Shown here piece by piece: positions 4,710 to 37,414 of a stretch of 37,414 bases of DNA. The translations under genes were made by a program, and so were the position numbers. How positions within the stretch are numbered: position 1 is the first letter of the stretch; each line of letters starts with the position of its first letter. Origin of the DNA: Tabrizicola soli (GTDB lineage: Bacteria > Pseudomonadota > Alphaproteobacteria > Rhodobacterales > Rhodobacteraceae). Location of the stretch: positions 1 to 37,414 of the forward strand of contig NZ_JAEACP010000031.1 in assembly GCF_015999335.1 (NCBI RefSeq), read 5' to 3'. The notes below the pieces were generated by a model, which saw only the letters and a list, made by a program, of their open reading frames with translations, made no database searches and was not told the origin of the DNA.

Positions 4710-5178
4710 GGCGATGCTGCTTTCGCTTGCCCTGGCCTGGGCCCTGCCCGCGCCGGTGGCGGCCGGGGTGGAGGATTCGGTCCTGGCCGGCGTCAACGAC
4801 GCGCGGGCCAGGGCGGGCTGCGGGCCCTTGCGGATGAACCCGAAGCTGACCGCGGCGGCGAAGTCGCATGCCAGGGCGATGGCCGAGCAGAACTTCTTCG
4901 GTCACACCGGCAAGGACGGCAGCCGGTTCTCGAACCGGATCGGGCGCCAGGGCTACAGCTACCGCGCGGCGGCCGAGAACATCGCGGCGGGGCAGAAGTC
5001 GGCCTCGCAGGTGGTGGGGAACTGGCTGAAAAGCGCGGGTCACCGGCGGAACATCCTGAACTGCCGCCTGAAGGAGACCGGGATCGCCGTGGTCTACCAG
5101 CCGGACGACGCACCGATCCGGGGGCAGCGGCAGCCGCTGCGCTACTACTGGGTCCAGGTCTTCGCGACGCCGAGATGA
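4675..5178 (+). CDS. Secreted CAP/SCP-domain protein
   Basis: Small exported protein of the cysteine-rich secretory protein/antigen 5/PR-1 (CAP) superfamily. A signal peptide is visible ([20 protein letters not shown], cleavage likely around the AAG). The mature part has the CAP signatures: [31 protein letters not shown] (metal/active-site His), AAENIAAG and the second His in SAGHRRNIL. Bacterial members have no agreed enzymatic role. The chosen ATG at 4675 follows GGAGG by only three bases and lies inside the fghA 3' end, and the ATG at 4687 is an alternative. The stop overlaps the next ATG by four bases, implying coupled translation. Confidence 0.88.
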
Positions 5179-26966: not shown

Positions 26967-27757
26967 ATCAATTTCCTGCGAATCCAGCCCGACCCCTGTT
27001 CGACGGCGACGACCAGGAGGAGCATGAGAAGGATGATCGCCAGCGCCTCGTCGTAGTTGAAGAGATCGAAGGCGACCTTGAGGTCCACCCCGATGCCACC
27101 GGCCCCGACGAGGCCCAGGGCAGCGGAGCCGCGCACGGATTTCTCCAGCGCAAAAAGCGAGGTGGCGGTGAAGGAGGGAAGGCAGGCCGGGAGGACGGCC
27201 GAGCCGATGATGCCGAGGCGGCTGGCCCCGATGGCGCGCAGCGCGTCTTGCGGGCCGGGGTCGGTTTCCTCCATCGCCTCGGCGAAGAAGCGCCCCGCGA
27301 AGCCGATCTTGTCGACCATGATCGCCATGACCCCGGCGGCCGGACCGAGGCCGACGATGATGATGAAGATGATCGCCCAGACCAGGTCCGGCACCGTGCG
27401 GAACAGCGCGATGAGGGCGCGGGCGGCGTGGCGGACCAGCGGGTGCGGCGAGAGGCGGTCGGTGGCGAGGATGGCGAAGGGAAGCGCGAGAAGAAGGCCG
27501 AGGAAGCAGCCGGCTACGGCCATCTGCAACGTCTCGAGGAGCTTCCAGGCGATGGGCGCGATCCGGGTGAAGTCCGGCGGGACCATCTGGGTCAGCATCC
27601 CCGAGGGGGCGAAAAGCCGGGCGAAGCCGCTGCCCAGTTTCTCGGGCGCGGGGGCGGTGGCGGCAAGCGAAGTGACGACCAGCGCCAGCACGGAAAGGAG
27701 GGCCGCATATTCGACGAGGCTGCGGTGCCGGAAGCGGGCGGGGGCAAGCGCGGTCAT
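26963..27757 (-). CDS. Phosphonate-type ABC transporter permease, second system
   Basis: 264-residue PhnE-like permease with about six helices. First helix YAALLSVLALVVTSLAAT, PhnE-type docking loop FFAEAMEETDPGPQDALRAIGASRLGIIGSAVLPACLP (about residues 160-197), and GLVGAGGIGVDLKVAFDLFNYDEAL near the C-terminus. Overlaps phnC2 and the methyltransferase by ATGA on each side. A single permease gene suggests a homodimeric channel, unlike the PhnE/PhnE2 pair of the other system. Confidence 0.92.
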   Translation of the reverse strand: MTALAPARFRHRSLVEYAALLSVLALVVTSLAATAPAPEKLGSGFARLFAPSGMLTQMVPPDFTRIAPIAWKLLETLQMAVAGCFLGLLLALPFAILATDRLSPHPLVRHAARALIALFRTVPDLVWAIIFIIIVGLGPAAGVMAIMVDKIGFAGRFFAEAMEETDPGPQDALRAIGASRLGIIGSAVLPACLPSFTATSLFALEKSVRGSAALGLVGAGGIGVDLKVAFDLFNYDEALAIILLMLLLVVAVEQGSGWIRRKLI

Positions 27758-28554
27758 GCGGCCTCCGCGTGGTCGAAGAACCGGCGCAGGCTGGTGGGGT
27801 TGGCGCGGCTGGTGGGCAGGTCCAGGGCGATCCGGCCGTTGGCCAGGCCGAGAATGCGGTCGGAAAAGCGCAGGGTGTGTTCGAGCCGGTGCGAGATGAC
27901 GAGAAGCGAGAGACCCTCTTCCCGGACGAGATCGAGGAGGAGGGACATGACCTCTTCCCCGGTCTGGGGATCAAGGCTGGCGTCGGGCTCATCGGCCAGG
28001 ATGAAGGCGGGGCGCTGCATCAGCATCCGGGCGATGGCGACGCGCTGCTGCTGGCCGCCCGACAGGCTGTCGACGCGGAGGAGCGCCCGGTCGGCCAGGC
28101 CCACGCGGGCCAGGCATTCCATCGCCTCGCCGCGCACCGGCGCCGGGGCCAGCGACTGCGCCCAGGCGTGGGGGCCGGACATCCGGGCCTGCACGCCGTG
28201 GATCACGTTCGACAGGGCCGAAAGGCGGGGAACGAGGTTATGTCGCTGCCAGACGATGCCGACCTCGGCCCGCAGGCGGCGCAACGCGCGCGGCGCCAGC
28301 ATGGGCACGTCGCGGCCGAGCATGCGGATCTCGCCGGAGGTCGGCTCGACCAGGCGGACGAGACAGCGCAGGAGGGTGGATTTGCCCGATCCGTTCGCCC
28401 CGATCAGCGCCGTTGCCTGGCCGGGTGACAGGGTGAAGTCCAGGCCCCGCAGCACCTGACGGCCGGGGAAGGCCTTGGTCAGGCCGGCTACGGCAAGGAC
28501 CGGCTCTGCGCGCGCAGAGCCGGCCAGCGCCTGCGGGGGAAGGGGCGCGTTCAT
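27754..28554 (-). CDS. Phosphonate-type ABC transporter ATPase, second system
   Basis: 266-residue PhnC-like ATPase. Walker A LIGANGSGKSTLLRCLVRL, Q-loop GIVWQRHNLVPRLSALSNVI, signature [18 protein letters not shown] and Walker B FILADEPDASLDP are intact. The ATG at 28554 lies 7 bp after the phnD2 stop, and upstream codons in the frame overlap that gene and are not used. The first 25 residues are a Pro/Ala leader absent from the other PhnC, and its DNA contains a perfect 24-bp palindrome. Confidence 0.92.
   Translation of the reverse strand: MNAPLPPQALAGSARAEPVLAVAGLTKAFPGRQVLRGLDFTLSPGQATALIGANGSGKSTLLRCLVRLVEPTSGEIRMLGRDVPMLAPRALRRLRAEVGIVWQRHNLVPRLSALSNVIHGVQARMSGPHAWAQSLAPAPVRGEAMECLARVGLADRALLRVDSLSGGQQQRVAIARMLMQRPAFILADEPDASLDPQTGEEVMSLLLDLVREEGLSLLVISHRLEHTLRFSDRILGLANGRIALDLPTSRANPTSLRRFFDHAEAA
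28500..28523. repeat. Perfect 24-bp palindrome inside the 5' end of the second phnC
   Basis: CCGGCTCTGCGC followed directly by its exact reverse complement, covering codons about 11-18 of phnC2. A hairpin of 10 or more pairs would form in the mRNA 31 bases after the start codon. Confidence 0.8.
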
Positions 28555-28561
28555 GCCCGGA

Positions 28562-29428
28562 TCACTCGCCGACGAATTCGGTGAACTCGGTGATGCCGAT
28601 GTTCTCGAACATCCTGCGCACCACGTCGTAGTCGGCATCCGTCACCGTGGGGTTGAACGTGCCGCCGATATACTTGGCGTTCTCCTCGGTCGAGGTCAGC
28701 GCCGCCAGGATTTCGGCGCCGTGGTCGGCGAAGGTCTGGCGGACGGTTTCCACCACCTCGGGCGAGACCTTGGCCGAGGCGAGCAGGATGTCGTCCGGCA
28801 GTTGCGGACCTTTCACCAGGACGCGGAACTTCTGGTCCGGGAATTTCCCGGCGATGCTGTCGAGATGGGTGCGGTTCAGGCCGATCCCGGCGATCTCGCC
28901 CTTGATCAGCGCCTCGACCGCGACGTTGCGGTTCAGGAACACCGGCTGGTAGTCCACCGCATAGGTCAGCCCTTGCCCGGCCAGCAGGTCCACCGGGCCC
29001 AGGTGCTGCGAGGTCGAGCCGATCTCGCCGAACGAGACCATCTGGCCTTTCAGGTCGGCGGGCATCTTCACCGGGCTGTCCTCCAGCACGACGACCGTGG
29101 AGTAGTAATCCGGGCGCACCCAGGTCACGACCGGCCGGGCATCGAGGCGCGCGTTGAAGACGACATATTCTGCCGGGCCGGTCAGAACGAAATCGACCTG
29201 GTCCGCCGCCATCGCCTCGACTGCCACGGTGCGGCCCGAGACCGGGAAGAACTCGACCTTCAGCCCCGAGGCGGCTTCGAACGCTTCCTTGAACGGCCCC
29301 ATCTCGCGCTGCATCGCTTCCATCCCGTCGATGTCGGTGACGGCGAAGCGGATGGTCTCCTGAGCGGTGGAAGCGGTTGCGGAGGCGATCGCAATGGCCA
29401 GAAGGCCCGAGGCGAGGAGGTGTTTCAT
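28562..29428 (-). CDS. PhnD-like phosphonate-binding protein, second system
   Basis: 288-residue periplasmic binding protein with signal peptide HLLASGLLAIAIASATASTA (cleavage near AQE). The family stretch is VEFFPVSGRTVAVEAMAADQVDFVLTGPAEYVVFNAR (about 60-95), with GSTSQHLGP where PhnD has its Ser/Thr pocket. ENAKYIGGTFNPTVTDADYDVVRRMFE is the family's C-terminal region. Sequence is clearly different from the PhnD at 23166-24062, so ligand preference probably differs (another phosphonate, or phosphite/methylphosphonate). First gene of a five-gene cassette, with a Pho-box-like site 72 bp upstream. Confidence 0.9.
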   Translation of the reverse strand: MKHLLASGLLAIAIASATASTAQETIRFAVTDIDGMEAMQREMGPFKEAFEAASGLKVEFFPVSGRTVAVEAMAADQVDFVLTGPAEYVVFNARLDARPVVTWVRPDYYSTVVVLEDSPVKMPADLKGQMVSFGEIGSTSQHLGPVDLLAGQGLTYAVDYQPVFLNRNVAVEALIKGEIAGIGLNRTHLDSIAGKFPDQKFRVLVKGPQLPDDILLASAKVSPEVVETVRQTFADHGAEILAALTSTEENAKYIGGTFNPTVTDADYDVVRRMFENIGITEFTEFVGE

Positions 29429-29825: not shown

Positions 29826-29848
29826 TGTTCCGGACTGGTGTTCCGGAC
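29826..29848. repeat. Tandem TGTTCCGGAC repeats before the integrase gene
   Basis: TGTTCCGGAC occurs at 29826-29835 and 29839-29848, 13 bp apart, with a further TGTTCCGGA at 29681-29689 on the other side of the attachment core. They could be arm-type integrase sites or operators. Confidence 0.5.
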
Positions 29849-29882
29849 GGGTGTGCCGGGAAGAGCTGATCGGGAGCTTCTC

Positions 29883-31691
29883 TTGCGTGACGCAACCTAT
29901 CTCACGAGGCGCGACGGCGTCTACTACGCGCGTATTGATGTGCCTCTGGATCTGGTGACGGTCCTGAAGACACGAACCAAGAAGCGATCGCTCAAGACCA
30001 AGGACAAGGTCGAAGCCAAGCGGCTGGTCTGGCCAGTGATCACAGAATGGCAGAGGGAGTTTGACGAGATACGCGCGCGTCGGTCGCTCGTGGATGCGGA
30101 TCGACAGTTCGCTGTCTGGGAGCATTACACCGCCGCGCTCGATCGTGACGAGGCGGAACGAGCGGCGATACCTGGGCAAGCTGATCTGGATCGCATCAAG
30201 GCGGACCTGCTTTTGCGTGTCGAGAAAGGGCAGATCACCGGCACGACCCCATTGTCGATAATTGATGCCACACTCGAATTGAAGCACGCGCAGACCGTAG
30301 CCAAGCTCTCTGCGAACGCACGCCGCGCGAAACTCGCCGAGCTGAAGAAGCATCTGTCCGTCGGCGAGACGGCCCTGATCGCACACGAAGTTGAGGATTA
30401 CCTTAAGCGTAACGGCCTCTTCGTCGAACGCTCTAGTCTGGATTGGATCAGTCTCGCACGGCACTTGATGCGCGCAGAGGTGGAGGCTCTTGAACGCTCG
30501 CTAGAGCGCGATCTTGGCGATTTTACCGGCCAGCCGCGTGACCCCTTGGTTAAGCCGCCGACCCTCGACAGAAGAGGGGCGTCCGCCGTGGCGGCACCCG
30601 GAGAAAGCATCGCCGAGGCTGTGGCAGCTTTCAGAAAAGAGAATCCGCGTAACGTCAGCAAGAGCCGGATCGAAGAGGCATGCCGGGACATCTCTATCTT
30701 CATCGATACCGTGGGTCCCGGCTTCCCAGTGGCGAACATCTCGAAAAAACAGGTTCGGGAGTGGAAGGCGCTTCTGATGGAGTATCCTGTGCGGGCCACG
30801 GAGGTGACCGAGTTCCGTGGGATGACCATGGCGCAGACGGTCGAGGCGAACAGGGAGAAGAAGAGGCCGGTCCTCTCAGACAGGACCGTGAACCGTTACC
30901 TCTCAAGTCTGTCAGCCTTCTGTTCCTGGGCAGAGGCTAACGGCTACATCAGCGCAAACCCGTGCTCGGGGATGGCCTTGCCCAAGGAGCGCCGGACGAA
31001 AACGCTACCCTTTTCGACCGATCAGTTGAACATCCTGTTCAAATCGCCGCTCTTCATGGGGGCGCAAAGCGACACCGAGTGGAGGAACATCGCGAAGCCC
31101 GGTGACGTCAGAATCCGCGACCATCGGTTCTGGGTTCCCCTGATCATGCTGTTCTCCGGCGCCCGCCCGGGGGAGATCGGCCAGCTCGCAGTAAGCGACG
31201 TGCGCCAGGAGCATGGCCACTGGATCATGCACATCACGACCGAGGGCGAAGCGCACGCCGAGGGGAAATCGGTCAAGACAGCTGGTTCGATGCGCGTTCT
31301 TCCCATTCACCCCCAACTCATGAAGCTCGGGTTTCTGGATTATCATGCTGAGCGAGCAGCCGCCGGTGACAAGCAGCTATTCCCAGGTGCCAAGCGCAAC
31401 GAGCGTGGTCAGATGATGTCCGACTACTCGCGGGAGTTCGGCAAGTATCTCACTCGCATCGGCCTGAAGGCAGGGCGAGGTCTGTCGCTCTACTCGTTCA
31501 GGCATGGGGCCGCCGATGCGCTTCGTCGTGCGGGGTATCTTGATAATCAGTTCGGCTTCATCCTCGGGCATACAGAAGGCTCGATGACTGGCCGCTACGG
31601 AATCATGCCTCAAGGTATGCTAGAGCAACGGATCGAACTGGTGAATGCCATCGGCTACCCAGGTCTCGAAACCGATCACTTGATCAGCTGA
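29883..31691 (+). CDS. Tyrosine recombinase (island integrase) with DUF6538-like N-terminus
   Basis: 602-residue site-specific recombinase that would integrate and excise the island at tRNA-Pro. The N-terminus DATYLTRRDGVYYARIDVP is the DUF6538-type start of many alphaproteobacterial integrases. A core-binding SAM-like domain lies around 250-370. The catalytic part has the first Arg in FSGARPGEIGQL (about 428), SLYSFRHGAADAL (Arg about 540), His in LGHTEG (about 561) and the nucleophile Tyr in GRYG (about 571). I chose TTG 29883 because GGGAG lies six bases upstream, and GTG 29838 is the alternative. Codon use is less GC-biased than in the phn genes. Confidence 0.92.
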   Translation: MRDATYLTRRDGVYYARIDVPLDLVTVLKTRTKKRSLKTKDKVEAKRLVWPVITEWQREFDEIRARRSLVDADRQFAVWEHYTAALDRDEAERAAIPGQADLDRIKADLLLRVEKGQITGTTPLSIIDATLELKHAQTVAKLSANARRAKLAELKKHLSVGETALIAHEVEDYLKRNGLFVERSSLDWISLARHLMRAEVEALERSLERDLGDFTGQPRDPLVKPPTLDRRGASAVAAPGESIAEAVAAFRKENPRNVSKSRIEEACRDISIFIDTVGPGFPVANISKKQVREWKALLMEYPVRATEVTEFRGMTMAQTVEANREKKRPVLSDRTVNRYLSSLSAFCSWAEANGYISANPCSGMALPKERRTKTLPFSTDQLNILFKSPLFMGAQSDTEWRNIAKPGDVRIRDHRFWVPLIMLFSGARPGEIGQLAVSDVRQEHGHWIMHITTEGEAHAEGKSVKTAGSMRVLPIHPQLMKLGFLDYHAERAAAGDKQLFPGAKRNERGQMMSDYSREFGKYLTRIGLKAGRGLSLYSFRHGAADALRRAGYLDNQFGFILGHTEGSMTGRYGIMPQGMLEQRIELVNAIGYPGLETDHLIS

Positions 31692-31769: not shown

Positions 31770-32975
31770 CTATTGGCTGGTCGACCCTCGGATACTGATC
31801 AGACGCGCCGAGGATGGGTCATAACGATAGTCGGTGATCGACCGATCCTTGATGCGCTTCACAGCTTCATCAATGACGAACAGAGGCACCATGAACCATT
31901 CCTTCGGCACGACCGGTCGTCCGAAGCGATCCCGGATCTCGATGTCGCACCTAGCTGGCTCGAAGATGCGATGGATCAGGTTTTCGAGTTTTGTTCTGTT
32001 GATGTTGAACAGTTCGTAGGTCGCAACAAGTTCAACATCTGCCATGAGGAAGGTTGGTTGCAGCCGCGCACCAGCGATCCGCTGTTTCACGCTCATGTTC
32101 GTCACGCCAATCTTGTGAATGACCTCGCGGTGTTGGGCGACCATTGGGTGATCGGACTTGCTTCTCAGCACATAGATGGTGCCGCTCGCCTCATCTCCGT
32201 CCTCTGGCCGGTCTGCAAAGAGGGGGCCAGCGACTGGCTCGGTGATCCGCCTTCCAGCTTCGTCCTTGTTCAGCGCCCGCTGAAGCGATCGCATGAGCAT
32301 ATTGCTCTCGGTGCCGTTGTCGAAGATCACCCGCAGCCGCGCATCGGTTCTTCCCTGAGCAGTGATTTCAATCTCGCCCATCTCGGCGACATAGGCTTTC
32401 TGCCCGCCAACGATGAAAAACCGGCCGGGCGCGATCTCGGCCTTTAGCTCAAAGGGACGGGTTTCCCGGATTCCTTCATCGAGGTCCTTCTGGACCTGCT
32501 CGAACAACGGCTTGAAAGTCGCGAAGTCCTCGCAGCGCGTCCGGTTCGCCACCTCCTCTGCCGCCTGCTTTTCCGCTGCCGGTCGGACATGCCGGAGTTC
32601 CGTTATCCCGGGACACTCAGCCTCGACTCCGAGCGCCGCCAACAGGGCATCGTCGTCAAGTTCCTCGTCCTCCCCCGTGGCAGTAGCAGTCACTGGGTCT
32701 CCGAGTAGGCCCTGATGATCGAGCGGGGCCACTACGGAACGGCATTCGGGCAGTGCCTTGATCCGGTCCAGGCGCACGGCATAGAGGCGCTCGAAGATGT
32801 CTCGGTCCTCCCCATGCTGTGGGATACGGCCGTGCTCTTCAACGAAGCACTGAATGTCCTCGAACCCAGCGATAATCCGCTCTTCTTGCGGGGTCCGACT
32901 GCTGGTCTTCTTCGACCCGACCTCTACCCCCAACTCGGAGAGAAGGGCGTCGTCTTCATCGGTGAAGTCAGCCAT
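31770..32975 (-). CDS. GIY-YIG nuclease-like protein of the defence-like operon
   Basis: 401-residue protein, last gene of the island operon. The C-terminal part is a GIY-YIG/MUG113-type domain: GTIYVLRSKSD (about 262-272), HKIGVTNMSVKQRI with Lys-Ile-Gly for YIG and the conserved Arg, and TKLENLIHRIF with the metal-binding Glu and a His. It may be the DNA-cutting component. The N-terminal region duplicates a short acidic motif, DDALLSELGVEV (8-19) and DDALLAALGVEA (108-119), separated by a helical stretch (FVEEHGRIPQHGEDRDIFERL) like those in helicase-associated domains. ATG 32975 overlaps the helicase stop by 8 bp. Confidence 0.85.
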   Translation of the reverse strand: MADFTDEDDALLSELGVEVGSKKTSSRTPQEERIIAGFEDIQCFVEEHGRIPQHGEDRDIFERLYAVRLDRIKALPECRSVVAPLDHQGLLGDPVTATATGEDEELDDDALLAALGVEAECPGITELRHVRPAAEKQAAEEVANRTRCEDFATFKPLFEQVQKDLDEGIRETRPFELKAEIAPGRFFIVGGQKAYVAEMGEIEITAQGRTDARLRVIFDNGTESNMLMRSLQRALNKDEAGRRITEPVAGPLFADRPEDGDEASGTIYVLRSKSDHPMVAQHREVIHKIGVTNMSVKQRIAGARLQPTFLMADVELVATYELFNINRTKLENLIHRIFEPARCDIEIRDRFGRPVVPKEWFMVPLFVIDEAVKRIKDRSITDYRYDPSSARLISIRGSTSQ

Positions 32976-35019
32976 TGGCGGCCTCGGCTTTCATCCGGGC
33001 AAGGAATGCCACGCCCTCCGCCATTCGCCGCTCCCACGCATCCTGTGAGGTGATCGACGGCAGGCGTCCGCGCTCCAGCTTGAATTTCACTGCCCGTCGG
33101 GCGAAGTCCCGTGCTTCTTCTGGTGTCAGCTTGACCTTCTTGGATGCGATCACGACCGCGACCTGTTTCAGACTGTCCTCGCTCATGGTTTTGGCCAGGA
33201 TCGAATAAGCTTCGCCGAACGGGTTGATCCGATCGATCAGGTCGATGTCCAGATCGCGGACGTTCATGAACCTCCGCACCCCGTCGATTAGGGCCGTGTT
33301 GGCCGATCGCTCGCCGTCATCGGTGCCGGTGGCGAGGCGTTTCGCCTCCTGCGTGAGGTTCAGCGCTGCGATGGCGTGCTGGCGGACAGCCTCTTGATCG
33401 TGGTCGTCAAGCTCGGGAAATCTCTCCTTCACGATCTTCCCCATCCGGACCTGGGTCAGTTCCTCAGGCACCAGCTCCTCGCGATCGAAGAGGCCGCGTT
33501 CTATCGCTGATTTGTCCTGCACGAAGGCCGTGATCACTTCGTTCAAATCCTGGCTGCATATCCGCACGGCTTCCCTGCTCCTTGGCTCGACCAGTCCCTT
33601 GATCTCGATCTGGAAGGTGCCGGTCTCCTCGTTAAAGCCAACGTTGCACTTGTTCTGGTCATACCCCGTGTCGCCGTAGTCAAACCCCGGCTGCGCGCTG
33701 CTGGTCTGCGTCTTCGGTTTGAACTCGAACTTCGGGGCCAGGACCTGTTCCATCAACAGGCTTGCCGCGATCGCCTTCAGCGTGTCGTTAACTGCTTCAG
33801 TCACCAGCCCCTGCGAGGCATCCGGTTCAGCAATGAGATTGGTAAACCGGGCATTGGTCTTGCCCGGCGCATCGCGCGTGGCTCGGCCGATGATCTGGAC
33901 CACCTCGGTCAGGCTGGCGCGATAGCCGACCGTGAGGGCGTGTTCGCACCAGATCCAGTCGAAACCCTCCTTCGCCATGCCTAGTGCGATGATGATGTCT
34001 ACATGGTCGCGGTTCATCTTCTGAGCTGGATCCTTCAGCGCGGATGAGACCCTGTCGCGCCGCGGCCCCTCGTCATCGACCAGATCAGCAATCCGCAGCA
34101 CCCGACCCTCGGGTGTCCGGACCAGCTGGAAGCCGGTCGCCTCGTCTACCCCTTGCCATTCGCCTAGGGACTCGATGATCTCCTCCACCTCCTTGTGCTT
34201 GTCCTTCGTGCTCTCGCGCGAGTTGACGGATGGGATGTGCAGGATGGTCTTCTCGGCCGGGTCAAGCACCTTCAGGATGTCGTCGACATAGGGGCCATTG
34301 TAGAAGAAATACCCGATGTCCAGCGCCTTGAGATGCTCATACCCGTTCAGCTGCTCGTAGTAGGTGTAGGTCACCGTCTCGAATTTGCTCTCGTCCTGCG
34401 GCATCAGGACGGCCTCGGCGTCGCCGCGGAAATAGCTGCCGGTCATAGCGACGACATGCACCCGGTCCCGATCGATGAAGGCGCCCAGGTGCGCACCCAG
34501 CTTGTTGTCGGGGTTGGCGCTGACATGATGGAACTCGTCCACTGCGATTAGCCGGTCATCAAAGGCTTCGACACCGAACCGGTCCACTGCGAAGCGGAAG
34601 GTTGAATGGGTGCAGACCAGCACGCGGTCCCTACTCTCCAGAAACGCACCGACCGAGTTCACCTTGCCGCCGTCGGTGCCGGGCGAGTTGCAGAGGTTCC
34701 ACTTCGGCTCCACGTTCCAGTCGGCCCAGAAGCCGAACTTTGACAGCGGCTCGTCGGCGAAGCTGGACCCGATCGACTTCTCCGGCACCACGATGATCGC
34801 CTGCTTCAGGCCCTGGTTGTGCAGCTTGTCCAGCGCGATGAACATCAGCGCGCGACTCTTACCGCTGGCCGGGGGTGACTTGATCAGGAGGTATTGCTCG
34901 CCCCGCTTCTCATACGCCCGTTCCTGCATGACGCGCATGCCGAGTTCGTTCGCCCTGGTCGAGGTGCCATTGCGTGCATAGGTGACAGAGACCGATGGGA
35001 CATGAAGGCGTTCAGTCAT
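32968..35019 (-). CDS. DEAD/DEAH-box superfamily 2 helicase
   Basis: 683-residue SF2 helicase/translocase. Walker A SPPASGKSRAL (Lys54), motif II DEFH (161-164, a DEAH variant), motif III AMTGSY (191-196) and motif VI QIIGRATR (375-382) are present. A C-terminal half of about 280 residues is mostly helical with no nuclease motif I recognise. AAGGA eight bases before ATG 35019 is a good ribosome binding site. It overlaps the GIY-YIG gene downstream by 8 bp and the small upstream frame by 8 bp. Its role is probably DNA translocation in a restriction-like complex. Confidence 0.9.
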   Translation of the reverse strand: MTERLHVPSVSVTYARNGTSTRANELGMRVMQERAYEKRGEQYLLIKSPPASGKSRALMFIALDKLHNQGLKQAIIVVPEKSIGSSFADEPLSKFGFWADWNVEPKWNLCNSPGTDGGKVNSVGAFLESRDRVLVCTHSTFRFAVDRFGVEAFDDRLIAVDEFHHVSANPDNKLGAHLGAFIDRDRVHVVAMTGSYFRGDAEAVLMPQDESKFETVTYTYYEQLNGYEHLKALDIGYFFYNGPYVDDILKVLDPAEKTILHIPSVNSRESTKDKHKEVEEIIESLGEWQGVDEATGFQLVRTPEGRVLRIADLVDDEGPRRDRVSSALKDPAQKMNRDHVDIIIALGMAKEGFDWIWCEHALTVGYRASLTEVVQIIGRATRDAPGKTNARFTNLIAEPDASQGLVTEAVNDTLKAIAASLLMEQVLAPKFEFKPKTQTSSAQPGFDYGDTGYDQNKCNVGFNEETGTFQIEIKGLVEPRSREAVRICSQDLNEVITAFVQDKSAIERGLFDREELVPEELTQVRMGKIVKERFPELDDHDQEAVRQHAIAALNLTQEAKRLATGTDDGERSANTALIDGVRRFMNVRDLDIDLIDRINPFGEAYSILAKTMSEDSLKQVAVVIASKKVKLTPEEARDFARRAVKFKLERGRLPSITSQDAWERRMAEGVAFLARMKAEAANG

Positions 35020-35197
35020 GGTAGATTTCCTTGGCGCCCATGGCGTAAATCAAGACCCAATCAAGACCTCCGGCCACTATCATGGCCATGTAAGACTTTG
35101 ATTCATAATTGCTTTCTCTTGAAGTGCGCACTTTCCACCCCTCATCGATCAAAACCCGATCAAAACTTTCCCGGCCGTCATGCCCAGAAGGGAACAT
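35012..35197 (-). CDS. Possible 61-residue protein between ATP-binding and helicase genes
   Basis: Unrecognised small frame. In favour: GAGGG six bases before ATG 35197, a 20-bp overlap with the preceding gene's end, and an 8-bp overlap of its stop with the helicase start (ATGACTGA), the same junction style as the rest of the operon. The product repeats a hydrophobic motif 33 residues apart, FDRVLID (12-18) and LDWVLIY (45-51). Against: the underlying DNA repeats could instead be regulatory, and no family is known to me. If not coding, this is a 158-bp intergenic region. Confidence 0.45.
   Translation of the reverse strand: MFPSGHDGRESFDRVLIDEGWKVRTSRESNYESKSYMAMIVAGGLDWVLIYAMGAKEIYHD
35049..35166. 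repeat. Two pairs of ATCAARAC repeats, 11-bp spacing
   Basis: ATCAAGAC at 35049 and 35060, and ATCAAAAC at 35148 and 35159. Within each pair the spacing is 11 bp, and the pairs are 99 bp apart (nine helical steps of 11, also 33 codons). The pairs lie between the AlbA_2-type and helicase genes. Confidence 0.7.
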
Positions 35198-36635
35198 AGC
35201 CTGCCCTCGGATGTGTCGGGTCTGCCGGCCGGATCAGCCCGGCTTTCTGGCACTGCCCGATGATCACCGAAGCCTGCGAGGCGTTCTTCGGGTCGATCCC
35301 GAAGCGTTCGCACAGGGTTGAATTCTTCATGCGCTGGCCGCTGACGAACTTCAAAGCTGCATGCTGGTAGCAGGCCCTGATCCTTTCCTCCGGTGTCATC
35401 TCGGCAAACCGACGCGGGGCGAAAAGCACTGCCCGCACGGCATCGCCTTCGGTCCGGAAGTCCGGTGGCGGCAATTGGTGCAGCTCAACTGCAAAAATCA
35501 CCTTGTCGATGCCCGTTCCCTGCTCCTCGCACAGGCGCATGCGCCGCATGAGAGAGGCCAGCGCCTCGTTGCGGGAGCGGGGGGGCAGGTCGAGGAACCG
35601 GTCCGGGCTCACCAGAGGCTGCCCCGGATTCGTGATCTCCATCCTGTCCGCGAACAACTCGATCAACGGGCCCGCCCCGCCGACCGTCATATCCTGGTGG
35701 ATCAGCGCGTTCGCCACCAGTTCACGGATGGCGATCGACGGGTAAAGCGGCCGATCCTCACGGAACGCCTTGCCGATGTGCTCGTTTCGCGGAAGCAGAC
35801 CGTCGATGTAGTCGACCAGCCCCTTGAAACCAGCGGCATAGCCGCGCTGCCCATCCTGCCGGTGCGTGACAGTATTGGCTCGGCTCATCCCGTCATAAGC
35901 GACGAAGCGCACGGCCTTGCGCGCGATCGCAGGTGCGAAGTCGCTCAGTCGCTTAGCAAACAGGACTGCGCCCAGGTTGGTGATGTTCCAGTGGCCGCCT
36001 GCGTCCTGCTGCACCAGGCGATCGGCCAGCAGTCTGTCGAAGATGCCAGCACGGTTGTCTGGCAAGGGTTGCGCCGTCAGGTCGAAGTAGCTGGCATAGT
36101 CAAGCCGCGCAAGAACCTGGTCGCCCGTCAGGAACTGAGCAGCAATCCCGGTTTCCCAGGCGTAGGGCTGCAGTTTTGCCCAAAGGGCCCGCAGACGTTC
36201 TGGATGCTCAGACAGCCGTGGCGTTGCACTGCCGATGCGAATGTAAGCACTCCGGTCGAACTCCACCGGCGCGGTCATGGCTGCAGGGATCGTCAGCAGG
36301 ATCAGCCGCGTGCCGTGATAGTCGACCGTCTCGAACTTGAAATCGATCGCCGGCTGCAGACGCTGTGCAAGCCAGAGGTCCAGCGGCTGGCCATTCTCCT
36401 TGCGTGTGCCGGGTTCGAACGTGGTCCCGATTGCAGAATGGTCGCCATCGCGGACGCCCCATACGACATAACCGAAATGTTGATCCGCCACGCGCGCAGA
36501 GTTCGAGAGGGCCGAGATCAGCTTGCCGATCATCTGCCCGTCCGGATTGTTCTCCTTGAACTCAGCCCAGGGTGCCTCGGCAGGCAGCTTCCGCAGGTCG
36601 TTGATGATGGCCAGGGTGCGCGGGTCTGTAGTCAT
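35178..36635 (-). CDS. AlbA_2/Schlafen-type ATP-binding protein
   Basis: 485-residue protein. The N-terminal AlbA_2 (Schlafen-like, divergent AAA-4) domain runs from WAEFKENN (23-30) through GYVVWGVRDGDHSAIGTTF (55-73) to YIRIGSATPRLSEHPERL (131-148). The second half is a GHKL-type ATP-binding fold: ELVANALIHQD (305-315), DRMEITNPG (330-338) and EEQGTGIDKVI (370-380) correspond to the N, G1 and G2 boxes. A winged-helix-like C-terminus follows. Proteins of this build occur in phage-defence loci and as regulators. It overlaps the methyltransferase stop by ATGA and the small downstream frame by 20 bp. Confidence 0.88.
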   Translation of the reverse strand: MTTDPRTLAIINDLRKLPAEAPWAEFKENNPDGQMIGKLISALSNSARVADQHFGYVVWGVRDGDHSAIGTTFEPGTRKENGQPLDLWLAQRLQPAIDFKFETVDYHGTRLILLTIPAAMTAPVEFDRSAYIRIGSATPRLSEHPERLRALWAKLQPYAWETGIAAQFLTGDQVLARLDYASYFDLTAQPLPDNRAGIFDRLLADRLVQQDAGGHWNITNLGAVLFAKRLSDFAPAIARKAVRFVAYDGMSRANTVTHRQDGQRGYAAGFKGLVDYIDGLLPRNEHIGKAFREDRPLYPSIAIRELVANALIHQDMTVGGAGPLIELFADRMEITNPGQPLVSPDRFLDLPPRSRNEALASLMRRMRLCEEQGTGIDKVIFAVELHQLPPPDFRTEGDAVRAVLFAPRRFAEMTPEERIRACYQHAALKFVSGQRMKNSTLCERFGIDPKNASQASVIIGQCQKAGLIRPADPTHPRAGYVPFWA

Positions 36636-37303
36636 GACTTGGCCAGCTTACCGCGTGCAGACGGCGAGGTCGTCATCTTCGTATACATATCGAACAACTT
36701 CTCCAGCCGTTCGGTGTCGTTCTTGAAGCGGCGGCCGATGTAGATGCGTTCGAGGACCTCGTCGTTGCGGTCGTGGGCAGCGCGCAGGTTTTCGGGCATC
36801 TTCTCGGGGTCGTAGAGGTCGGCGATGGTGGCGGGGAAATGTGCCTCGCGGGCGAGGAGGATATCTTCGGCGCAGGCGGTCAGATCGGCCTTGTTCTTTT
36901 CAGTCAGGGTGGGGACGGGGAAGGTGTTCCAGCCGAGGGTATTGGAGTATCGGTAGTCGGTCTTCAGCTTGCCGCAGACAGTGCCGATCCAGACCAGGTG
37001 CAGGCGCGAGGCTATCAGCGCCATGTTCCAAAGTGGGGCATCATAGAGGGCAAAAGCCAAATCAGTGATGATTGATCCAGGCGGCAGCAGACCAACCGGA
37101 AGGTATTGGCGGGTTTCAGAGGAGACCTTCGGAACGATAATACAGGTTTCCGTCCCGGTCTGTTTCACTTCTTCGAATCTGTGTGGCCAGGCTGCGCCTT
37201 GCTTTGTCCCATCCTTGGGACTCAGCGATCTTGCTTTCGCTACAGAGGCGAAGCGTTTGGAGAAGTCTGCAACTTGGGCAGCATAGTTAGGCTCCAGACC
37301 CAT
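36632..37303 (-). pseudogene. MmeI-like DNA methyltransferase, 3' part only, cut by an IS element
   Basis: C-terminal portion of a class I N6-adenine DNA methyltransferase of the MmeI-like group. Visible are the target-recognition stretch CIIVPKVSSETRQYLPVGLL, then SIITDLAFALYDAPLWNMAL, SRLHLVWIGTVCGKLKTDYR, YSNTLGWNTFPVP and the helical end DLYDPEKMPENLRAAHD with ERIYIGRRFKNDTERLEKLF. The SAM-binding and NPPY motifs are absent because an IS5-family element starts immediately upstream. The border at about 37303 is estimated. The missing 5' part may survive beyond the IS. First gene of the defence-like operon; its stop overlaps the next ATG by ATGA. Confidence 0.85.
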
Positions 37304-37414
37304 TGATTTCGGGCGGTTCGCGTGATTCAGGCCTCGCAAGGAGACCTGACCGATGAGCAACCTCTACTGGCTGTCCGAGGCGCAAATGGAGCGCCTGAAG
37401 CCATTCTTTCCGAA
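37304..37414 (+). mobile_element. Left end of an IS5-family insertion sequence
   Basis: The transposase start at 37353 identifies the element, and homology to the methyltransferase ends near 37303. The exact left terminus and any target duplication cannot be fixed because the right end is outside the window. Confidence 0.7.
37353..37414 (+). CDS. IS5-family transposase, first 20 codons
   Basis: Partial frame running off the right edge. It starts at ATG 37353, nine bases after AAGGAG. The product begins MSNLYWLSEAQMERLKPFFP, the conserved opening of IS5-family (IS427-like) transposases, whose N-terminal helix is part of the DNA-binding region. The catalytic DDE residues are not in the window, so activity cannot be judged. 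Confidence 0.85.
   Translation, partial: MSNLYWLSEAQMERLKPFFP

Follow-up and report, generated by a model that had tools for sequence, protein, structure and literature searches.

A probably inactivated split Type IIG-like restriction locus of Tabrizicola soli with paired repeats beside its AlbA_2 gene, and an accessory slot with core-gene scars among its relatives

How does a DNA-cutting enzyme stay silent until the DNA of its own cell has been marked? The question is long-standing, and for part of the Type II systems C proteins are the answer. It is raised again by an operon on the minus strand of a 37,414-base stretch of Tabrizicola soli DNA (hereafter the window), which is one entire contig of a 57-contig genome. 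An earlier note on this DNA had read the operon as a modification-guided anti-phage system made of a DNA modifier, an AlbA_2 ATP-binding protein, a helicase and a nuclease-like protein. We consider it likely that the locus is an inactivated member of a split Type IIG-like restriction class with exchangeable cargo, in which the AlbA_2 protein would control the restriction half. The features computed here are gene content and order, the loss of nuclease residues in relatives, the intact helicase and GIY-YIG residues, an accessory slot, scars within it, repeats and a truncation. The operon is real, and its core is the published OspHL35III / DnmA-YeeB-YeeC class, an assignment that rests on domain content and gene order; the novelty lies in the slot, its scars and the repeats. 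Loci compared are labelled with L-numbers and genomes with G-numbers, G000 being the genome of the window itself. The features discussed below are as follows.

29838 to 31691, plus strand: island integrase, a tyrosine recombinase with DUF6538 (Pfam PF20172, 7.8e-19; PF00589, 9.4e-09)
31770 to 32975, minus strand: GIY-YIG nuclease, YeeC-like (T5orf172/MUG113), 401 residues (Pfam PF13455, 6.4e-15; PF10544, 9.6e-13)
32968 to 35019, minus strand: superfamily 2 (SF2) helicase/translocase, YeeB-like, 683 residues (Pfam DEAD, 4.7e-06; ResIII, 7.5e-05)
35049 to 35066, minus strand: second repeat box, with three mismatches, upstream of the helicase
35148 to 35165, minus strand: first repeat box, TTTTGATCGGGTTTTGAT, two TTTTGAT units 11 base pairs (bp) apart, directly past the AlbA_2 stop
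35178 to 36635, minus strand: AlbA_2 (Schlafen-like) protein with HATPase_c_4, 485 residues, the slot cargo (Pfam PF04326, 5.2e-15; PF13749, 2.9e-23)
36632 to 37282, minus strand: C-terminal remnant of an MmeI-like methyltransferase, comprising target recognition domain (TRD) and C domain (Pfam PF20466, 9.7e-54; PF20467, 1.2e-18)
37288 to 37414, plus strand: end of a multi-copy element of the IS5 insertion sequence type, with the transposase start codon at 37353

The three core families recur together well beyond this genome. A scan of GTDB genomes with the helicase gave at least 549 confirmed relatives, and the 80 best among them were retained; those retained span Pseudomonadota, Bacillota, Bryobacterales, Desulfuromonadales, Bacteroidetes and Akkermansiaceae, and the helicase is present in 17 of 385 genomes of the host's taxonomic class, its own counted. 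Of 97 loci, 92 include the end of the methyltransferase gene, and in these the genes follow each other as methyltransferase, slot, helicase and GIY-YIG, so that the check proposed earlier, co-occurrence of the four families in constant order, is borne out in many genomes for these three. The GIY-YIG gene was detected in 95 of the 97 loci, the remaining two (L099 and L113) stopping 0 and 46 bases past the helicase, and its absence from related loci can no longer be held against a single system. In 93 of 95 cases its start is no more than 20 bp away from the stop codon of the helicase, L027 and L078 being the exceptions. Rather than being a distinct effector, as had been suggested, this gene is a defining part of the published class.

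Individual residues were compared across the core. All five MmeI domains were found in each of the five full-length relatives scanned, and methyltransferase motif I (DPACGSGNFL) is kept in 76 of 76 full-length methyltransferases. Nuclease positions were placed in the relatives by alignment to the MmeI structure 5hr4. At the equivalents of the residues that we take to be numbered D70, E80 and K82 in MmeI, none of the 76 sequences has the D, an E or D, or the K. The helicase motifs PASGKS, DEFHH, TGS and QIIGR-x-TR, on the other hand, are identical in 98 of 98 sequences, and the GIY-YIG residues G265, Y268, K288, G290, R299 and E331 in all 93 aligned sequences (the window counted in both); the GIY-YIG domain itself occupies residues ~265–375 of the window protein. 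The same protein carries a duplicated D-D-x-L-x-x-x-L motif at residues 8–15 and 108–115, the acidic duplication that had been noticed before; it is conserved among GIY-YIG relatives, the four fixed positions being kept in 85–92 of 93 sequences for the first copy and in 75–92 for the second, again with the window counted. In intact relatives the MmeI-like protein, its own nuclease centre lost, would recognise and methylate a short asymmetric site, and at unmodified sites it would recruit the helicase, which would translocate on DNA, and the GIY-YIG protein, which would cut.

The structural model of the GIY-YIG protein is modest (pLDDT 76, pTM 0.38) and had no match in the PDB at an expectation value (E) of 0.001 or below, while the helicase model is poor (pLDDT 62); the helicase also has a weak PADLOC match to PbeA (1.7e-05). 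Residues ~171–245 of the GIY-YIG protein (32241–32465) weakly resemble SH3/KOW-like barrels such as eIF5A and EF-P domain I (best E 0.004), and this middle domain might be a reader domain. Furthermore, an F-x-x-E-x-GR-x-P-like stretch is common to the helicase C-terminus (32971–33168) and the GIY-YIG N-terminus (32676–32918). One hhalign comparison of the two ends gave E 6e-4, against 0.02 or worse for four control stretches; the homology is suggestive only, and the stretch is perhaps a common docking module.

The core has been described twice. The OspHL35III class of Blow et al. 2016 reportedly numbers several hundred entries in REBASE, and the published account, as far as it is accessible, mentions no cargo slot, scars or repeats (PMC4752239); the window differs from it further in its truncated methyltransferase. 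DnmA-YeeB-YeeC of Bacillus subtilis and relatives matches the window in all three families and their order; DnmA is without a restriction endonuclease motif and the B. subtilis system was judged a relic, and the available portions of these papers name only an unspecified ‘uncharacterized protein’ as neighbour and no accessory slot (PMC9973331, PMC7261158). For Vibrio crassostreae, a study cited in PMC9973331 is reported to have found a higher sensitivity to some phages once dnmA or yeeB was deleted. The openly licensed literature, to the extent that its text was accessible, yielded no description of the slot, scars or repeats. MmeI itself, a Type IIL single chain (PDB 5hr4), shares its five domains with the relatives, but in these the nuclease residues are absent from 76 of 76 sequences and cutting is assigned to separate proteins. 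Type I systems are similar in having foreign genes inside the operon, such as PrrC and RhuM, described as embedded in restriction-modification loci (PMC3710099), and DarTG2 with its repressor RptR (PMC12255303), and in having AlbA_2 relatives between hsdS and hsdR or between hsdM and hsdS; they differ in that no HsdS match was found among the window operon proteins, where the TRD resides in the methyltransferase. As to bacteriophage exclusion (BREX), neither PglZ nor BrxC had a PADLOC match among the six window proteins scanned, on a contig that ends at 37,414.

In the window itself the modifying half is broken. The earlier note had counted four genes and a possible small fifth, joined by overlaps of 4–20 bp; four genes do lie on the minus strand and the overlaps are real (8, 8, 20 and 4 bp, counting the small open reading frame (ORF) at 35012–35197), but the methyltransferase gene is a fragment and the small ORF is no gene. 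The fragment keeps approximately the last 215 residues, the N-terminal ~700 being missing: homology to a full-length relative spans residues 710–913 of 926 and ends at 37282, the equivalent of residue 710. Its MmeI_TRD and MmeI_C domains were found with Pfam, and PADLOC matched it to Type IIG (1.2e-69) and, more weakly, to DrmMI (7.7e-08). When the own genome was searched with this relative, no further piece of methyltransferase came up, and the MmeI_Mtase profile gave two partial matches only, both in long ORFs elsewhere and one barely above the family cut-off.

The gene is cut off because an IS5-type element and the contig end interrupt it. The element edge at 37288–37414 has 14 other copies in the genome (127–137 bp, 98–100% identity), at least 11 of them at contig ends, and it contains the start of the transposase frame; contig 11 has a copy of 77% identity that codes for DUF4096 and DDE_Tnp_1 proteins, the IS5-type layout. 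The assembly of G000 is interrupted at many contigs by this highly repeated element. The catalytic part of the methyltransferase was probably deleted or is located in an assembly gap; the element, probably together with a deletion, would have taken it out, and with the catalytic part gone the system is probably dead. The window would be a case from nature in which the methyltransferase is lost but the frames of helicase and nuclease are not, in keeping with a Type I-like scheme where nothing is cut unless the methyltransferase is there.

What separates the two halves is a slot of variable content. An insert of more than 60 bp lies between methyltransferase and helicase in 55 of 92 scoreable loci and none in the other 37, the five of 97 loci without a methyltransferase end having been left out of the count; without two duplicate contigs the figure is 54 of 90. 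Among the 54 inserted loci with a same-strand ORF, 37 show a 4-bp overlap of a cargo ORF with the stop of the methyltransferase gene. A Pfam scan covered 64 proteins, namely 63 of the 84 slot ORFs (same strand, mostly 94 residues or longer) and the AlbA_2 protein of the window. It identified AlbA_2 in 7, RhuM in 6, YhcG/DUF1016 in 5, BrnT in 4 and an NgoFVII-type PLD domain in 2, whereas PDDEXK_4, GmrSD_N, YafQ, RelB, PIN, zeta and DUF559 were found once each. Altogether the cargo falls into about eleven Pfam-named families, the rest being without a match or in unnamed clusters. AlkZ, MarR and PaaX, with two members each, were rejected as separate cargo families, their matches being part of the 563-residue AlbA_2 protein of L073 and presumably of its cluster-mate L106.

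AlbA_2 is therefore exchangeable cargo and not a core member, the slot being often empty or otherwise filled, and the reading of the locus as a modification-guided system, right in outline as to one conserved unit and its purpose, does not extend to this gene. Proteins 77–80% identical to that of the window sit in the same slot in L082, L095, L102 and L118. On a helicase tree of 96 sequences, 6 changes have to be assumed for the AlbA_2 label (7 rows), 4 of them forced by well-supported branches, as against 5 for YhcG (5 rows) and 2 for RhuM (5 rows); these many label changes suggest that cargo comes and goes. The tree was a quick one with long-branch warnings, cargo labels were assigned by hand with a single label even where there were two cargo genes, and L080 and L088, duplicates of L024 and L025, were dropped.

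Traces of how cargo may have entered are preserved within the slot. A partial copy of a core gene was found there in five of the 97 loci. In L032 a 75-residue ORF, consisting of a decayed helicase start fused to a methyltransferase end, separates two cargo genes. A copy of the helicase start stands ahead of AlbA_2 in L102 and L118, and on the plasmids L167 and L168, and L035 and L096 have a short copy of the methyltransferase end, that of L096 being just 13 residues long. L075 has a weak match to the methyltransferase end as well (E 0.007), but it lies far from the slot and was disregarded. The simplest account, which we infer from these arrangements, is that whole systems recombined in tandem and then lost the middle part by deletion, so that the two cargo genes remained together with a scar. 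Slot and scars also suggest a route by which defence operons acquire and exchange extra genes, namely recombination with other operons of their type.

The DNA beside AlbA_2 deserves closer description. The two boxes of the window lie 99 bp apart, and the three-mismatch copy was matched by none of 100 shuffles. They account for the supposed fifth gene: the ORF of 61 residues has no family match and is non-coding DNA with the two boxes, and it resembles ORFs in L102 (E 0.002) and L082 (E 0.043) because the DNA repeats are shared. In 7 of 98 loci (the window, L079, L082, L095, L100, L102 and L118) the helicase is preceded by two boxes 98–106 bp apart. When up to four mismatches are allowed, 8 of 97 loci have a box in the 400 bp ahead of the helicase, compared with none of 97 in an equal stretch inside the helicase gene. 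A strict two-box pattern had no occurrence in 385 genomes, the window's included, and it misses the window because the second box has mismatches.

Paired 10–11-bp direct repeats were found beside the AlbA_2 gene in 19 of 29 loci, downstream in 15, upstream in 4 and never on both sides; 58 tests with 60 shuffles each were made, for which about one false positive is expected. In the 15 loci the array behind the AlbA_2 stop scores above all 60 shuffles, and in L181, L184, L185 and L186 paired 11-bp repeats, likewise equalled by no shuffle, precede the AlbA_2 start. All ten close AlbA_2 loci tested, the window counted, have the array directly past the stop codon, and close AlbA_2 genes with the array also occur on plasmids L163 and L164, with no helicase of this family downstream. 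The distant genes of L171, L173 and L183 have downstream arrays of different sequence, and 10–11-bp tandem repeats stand behind AlbA_2 in L073 and L106; array sequence differs between AlbA_2 subfamilies. As for the company these genes keep, two type I loci (L174 and L187) have a relative flanked by hsdS and hsdR, and the Desulfosarcina plasmid L173 has one flanked by genes for a DUF1156 anti-phage protein and a PLD anti-phage protein. In this last case AlbA_2 is followed by its own repeat array, and a TIR gene comes afterwards.

We propose that AlbA_2 would bind the paired 11-bp repeats, a putative operator between AlbA_2 and helicase, and would in this way control the restriction half (helicase and GIY-YIG) separately from the modification half. 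A precedent exists in RptR, a dedicated repressor that binds direct repeats, although its TAGCTA repeats are at a promoter at the island head and the TTTTGAT repeats of the window lie between the two halves (PMC12255303). More generally, AlbA_2/HATPase proteins may be portable controllers in systems as unrelated as split Type IIG, type I and DUF1156/PLD, placed mostly before the restriction gene and accompanied by a co-evolving 10–11-bp operator array. We hold this wider proposal tentatively, at somewhat less than an even chance, and it is slightly strengthened by the arrays that precede the gene in four loci without a downstream array. If it is true, one family would answer the silencing problem for several system types, the repeat arrays would provide a sequence handle for predicting controller targets, and cutting could be turned on or off independently of marking.

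Several observations weigh against this interpretation of the locus or of its AlbA_2 gene. No clear array was found on either side of AlbA_2 in 10 of the 29 loci (with L172 and L180 borderline), among them both hsdS-AlbA_2-hsdR loci. In L183, where AlbA_2 is flanked by hsdM and hsdS and hsdR lies upstream, the gene after the array is hsdS, so that the next gene is not always a restriction gene. L079 (PIN/DUF2281) and L100 (YhcG) have both boxes with other cargo and no AlbA_2, and the genome behind L100 contains no AlbA_2 relative at E 1e-10. No helix-turn-helix match was obtained for the AlbA_2 protein of the window at E 1 or for that of L171 at E 0.01; the distant L073 protein has C-terminal winged-helix matches. 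The TTTTGATCGGGTTTTGAT box also occurs in unrelated viral contigs (L128–L143 and L145–L162 of IMG/VR). With respect to the core, a loose D-x(6-16)-[ED]-h-K pattern was found within the first 110 residues of 2 of the 76 methyltransferases, and the window copy lacks the N-terminus, the part that would hold a nuclease motif and that might lie in an assembly gap. Finally, single deletions of dnmA, yeeB or yeeC left the sensitivity of B. subtilis to three phages unchanged (PMC9973331), and loss of dnmA left its plasmid uptake unchanged (PMC7261158), according to the accessible parts of these reports.

Other roles for AlbA_2 and its surroundings have to be set beside control of the restriction half. 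The protein could be a guard effector, a Schlafen-like RNase held inactive by the restriction complex and freed upon phage inhibition in the manner of PrrC. AlbA_2 is classed with Schlafen, and the window protein carries the SLFN_AlbA_2 domain by which bacterial Schlafens are recognised (PF04326, 5.2e-15), RNase activity being putative; Schlafen RNases are reported as backup effectors beside BREX (PMC12839542), PrrC and RhuM are embedded in restriction-modification loci (PMC3710099), and the same slot holds the toxin and nuclease families YhcG, BrnT, YafQ, PIN, zeta, PDDEXK_4 and GmrSD_N. This is a serious possibility, if one that we would place below even; it leaves the paired repeats and their subfamily-specific sequence without explanation, and the AlbA_2 frame is intact in the window although the methyltransferase is cut off. 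Alternatively, the boxes could be sites of a recombinase or mobile element, AlbA_2 and boxes forming a mobile cassette in which regulation is not involved. The occurrence of both on plasmids L163 and L164 without a following helicase, with recombinase genes within 3 kb, is in line with that, as are the boxes present in IMG/VR contigs and on plasmids that lack AlbA_2. We nevertheless regard a cassette as unlikely: window-type loci have no array at the other end of the AlbA_2 unit, the scars in the slot are fragments of core genes and not boxes, and the repeats differ per AlbA_2 subfamily and lie on either side of the gene.

A further alternative concerns the state of the locus, in which the remaining genes would have been co-opted after the loss of the methyltransferase, for example for DNA repair or gene regulation, and selection would still be keeping the operon alive. 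Open frames are seen for AlbA_2, helicase and GIY-YIG protein, the invariant motifs are kept, and the insertion sequence could drive transcription into them. A recent insertion would, however, likewise leave frames intact, and the copies of the element are nearly identical, which fits recent activity; co-option therefore seems quite improbable to us. Membership in Hma, the likeness drawn in the earlier note, can practically be set aside. Helicase, methyltransferase and ATPase are indeed all present, as in Hma and in DUF499-centred, BREX-related systems, but Hma combines its helicase with an m5C methyltransferase (HmaB) and a DUF499-type ATPase (HmaC), according to the parts of PMC8565338 and PMC12839542 at hand, whereas the window has MmeI-type TRD and C domains and AlbA_2 with HATPase_c_4, and no match named Hma was returned for it.

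The distribution of the box outside the restriction loci was also recorded. The exact 20-mer is present in 16 IMG/VR contigs, compared with none for a reversed control, and a relaxed pattern in 34, including those 16; 10 of the 34 lie inside ORFs of at least 60 residues and 24 outside. Genes flanking the boxes had no common function among the 31 of 46 flanking ORFs examined. With such a box, phages might titrate AlbA_2 control or imitate it. A 30-base box query matched 17 annotated phage and 48 plasmid records, many at chance-level E-values. The plasmid records L165 and L166 contain no AlbA_2 relative despite their box pairs. In L165, an Erythrobacter plasmid, the boxes are at 4999 and 5087, 88 bp apart and ~200 bp upstream of the start of a C-5 cytosine methyltransferase. 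The genome of L079 encodes two AlbA_2 relatives of 29–30% identity; with these and none in the genome of L100, action of AlbA_2 in trans on the boxes of the two loci had no support. Nor did a function of the box as a site of a host chromosomal regulator, the exact 18-mer being present in 1 of 240 genomes of the host's taxonomic class, that of the window itself.

The operon lies in an island, and the integrase noted earlier as its neighbour was confirmed as the DUF6538/tyrosine-recombinase gene at 29838–31691. The island border is at ~29 kb, where the guanine-plus-cytosine fraction changes from ~0.69 to ~0.60. ORFs to the left of the island occupy 27754–29428 and look by eye like genes for an ABC transporter ATPase and what we take to be a phosphonate-type periplasmic binding protein. 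Genome G257 has two copies of the system, L038 and L034, one in the main clade (76% helicase identity) and one on a deep branch (51%).

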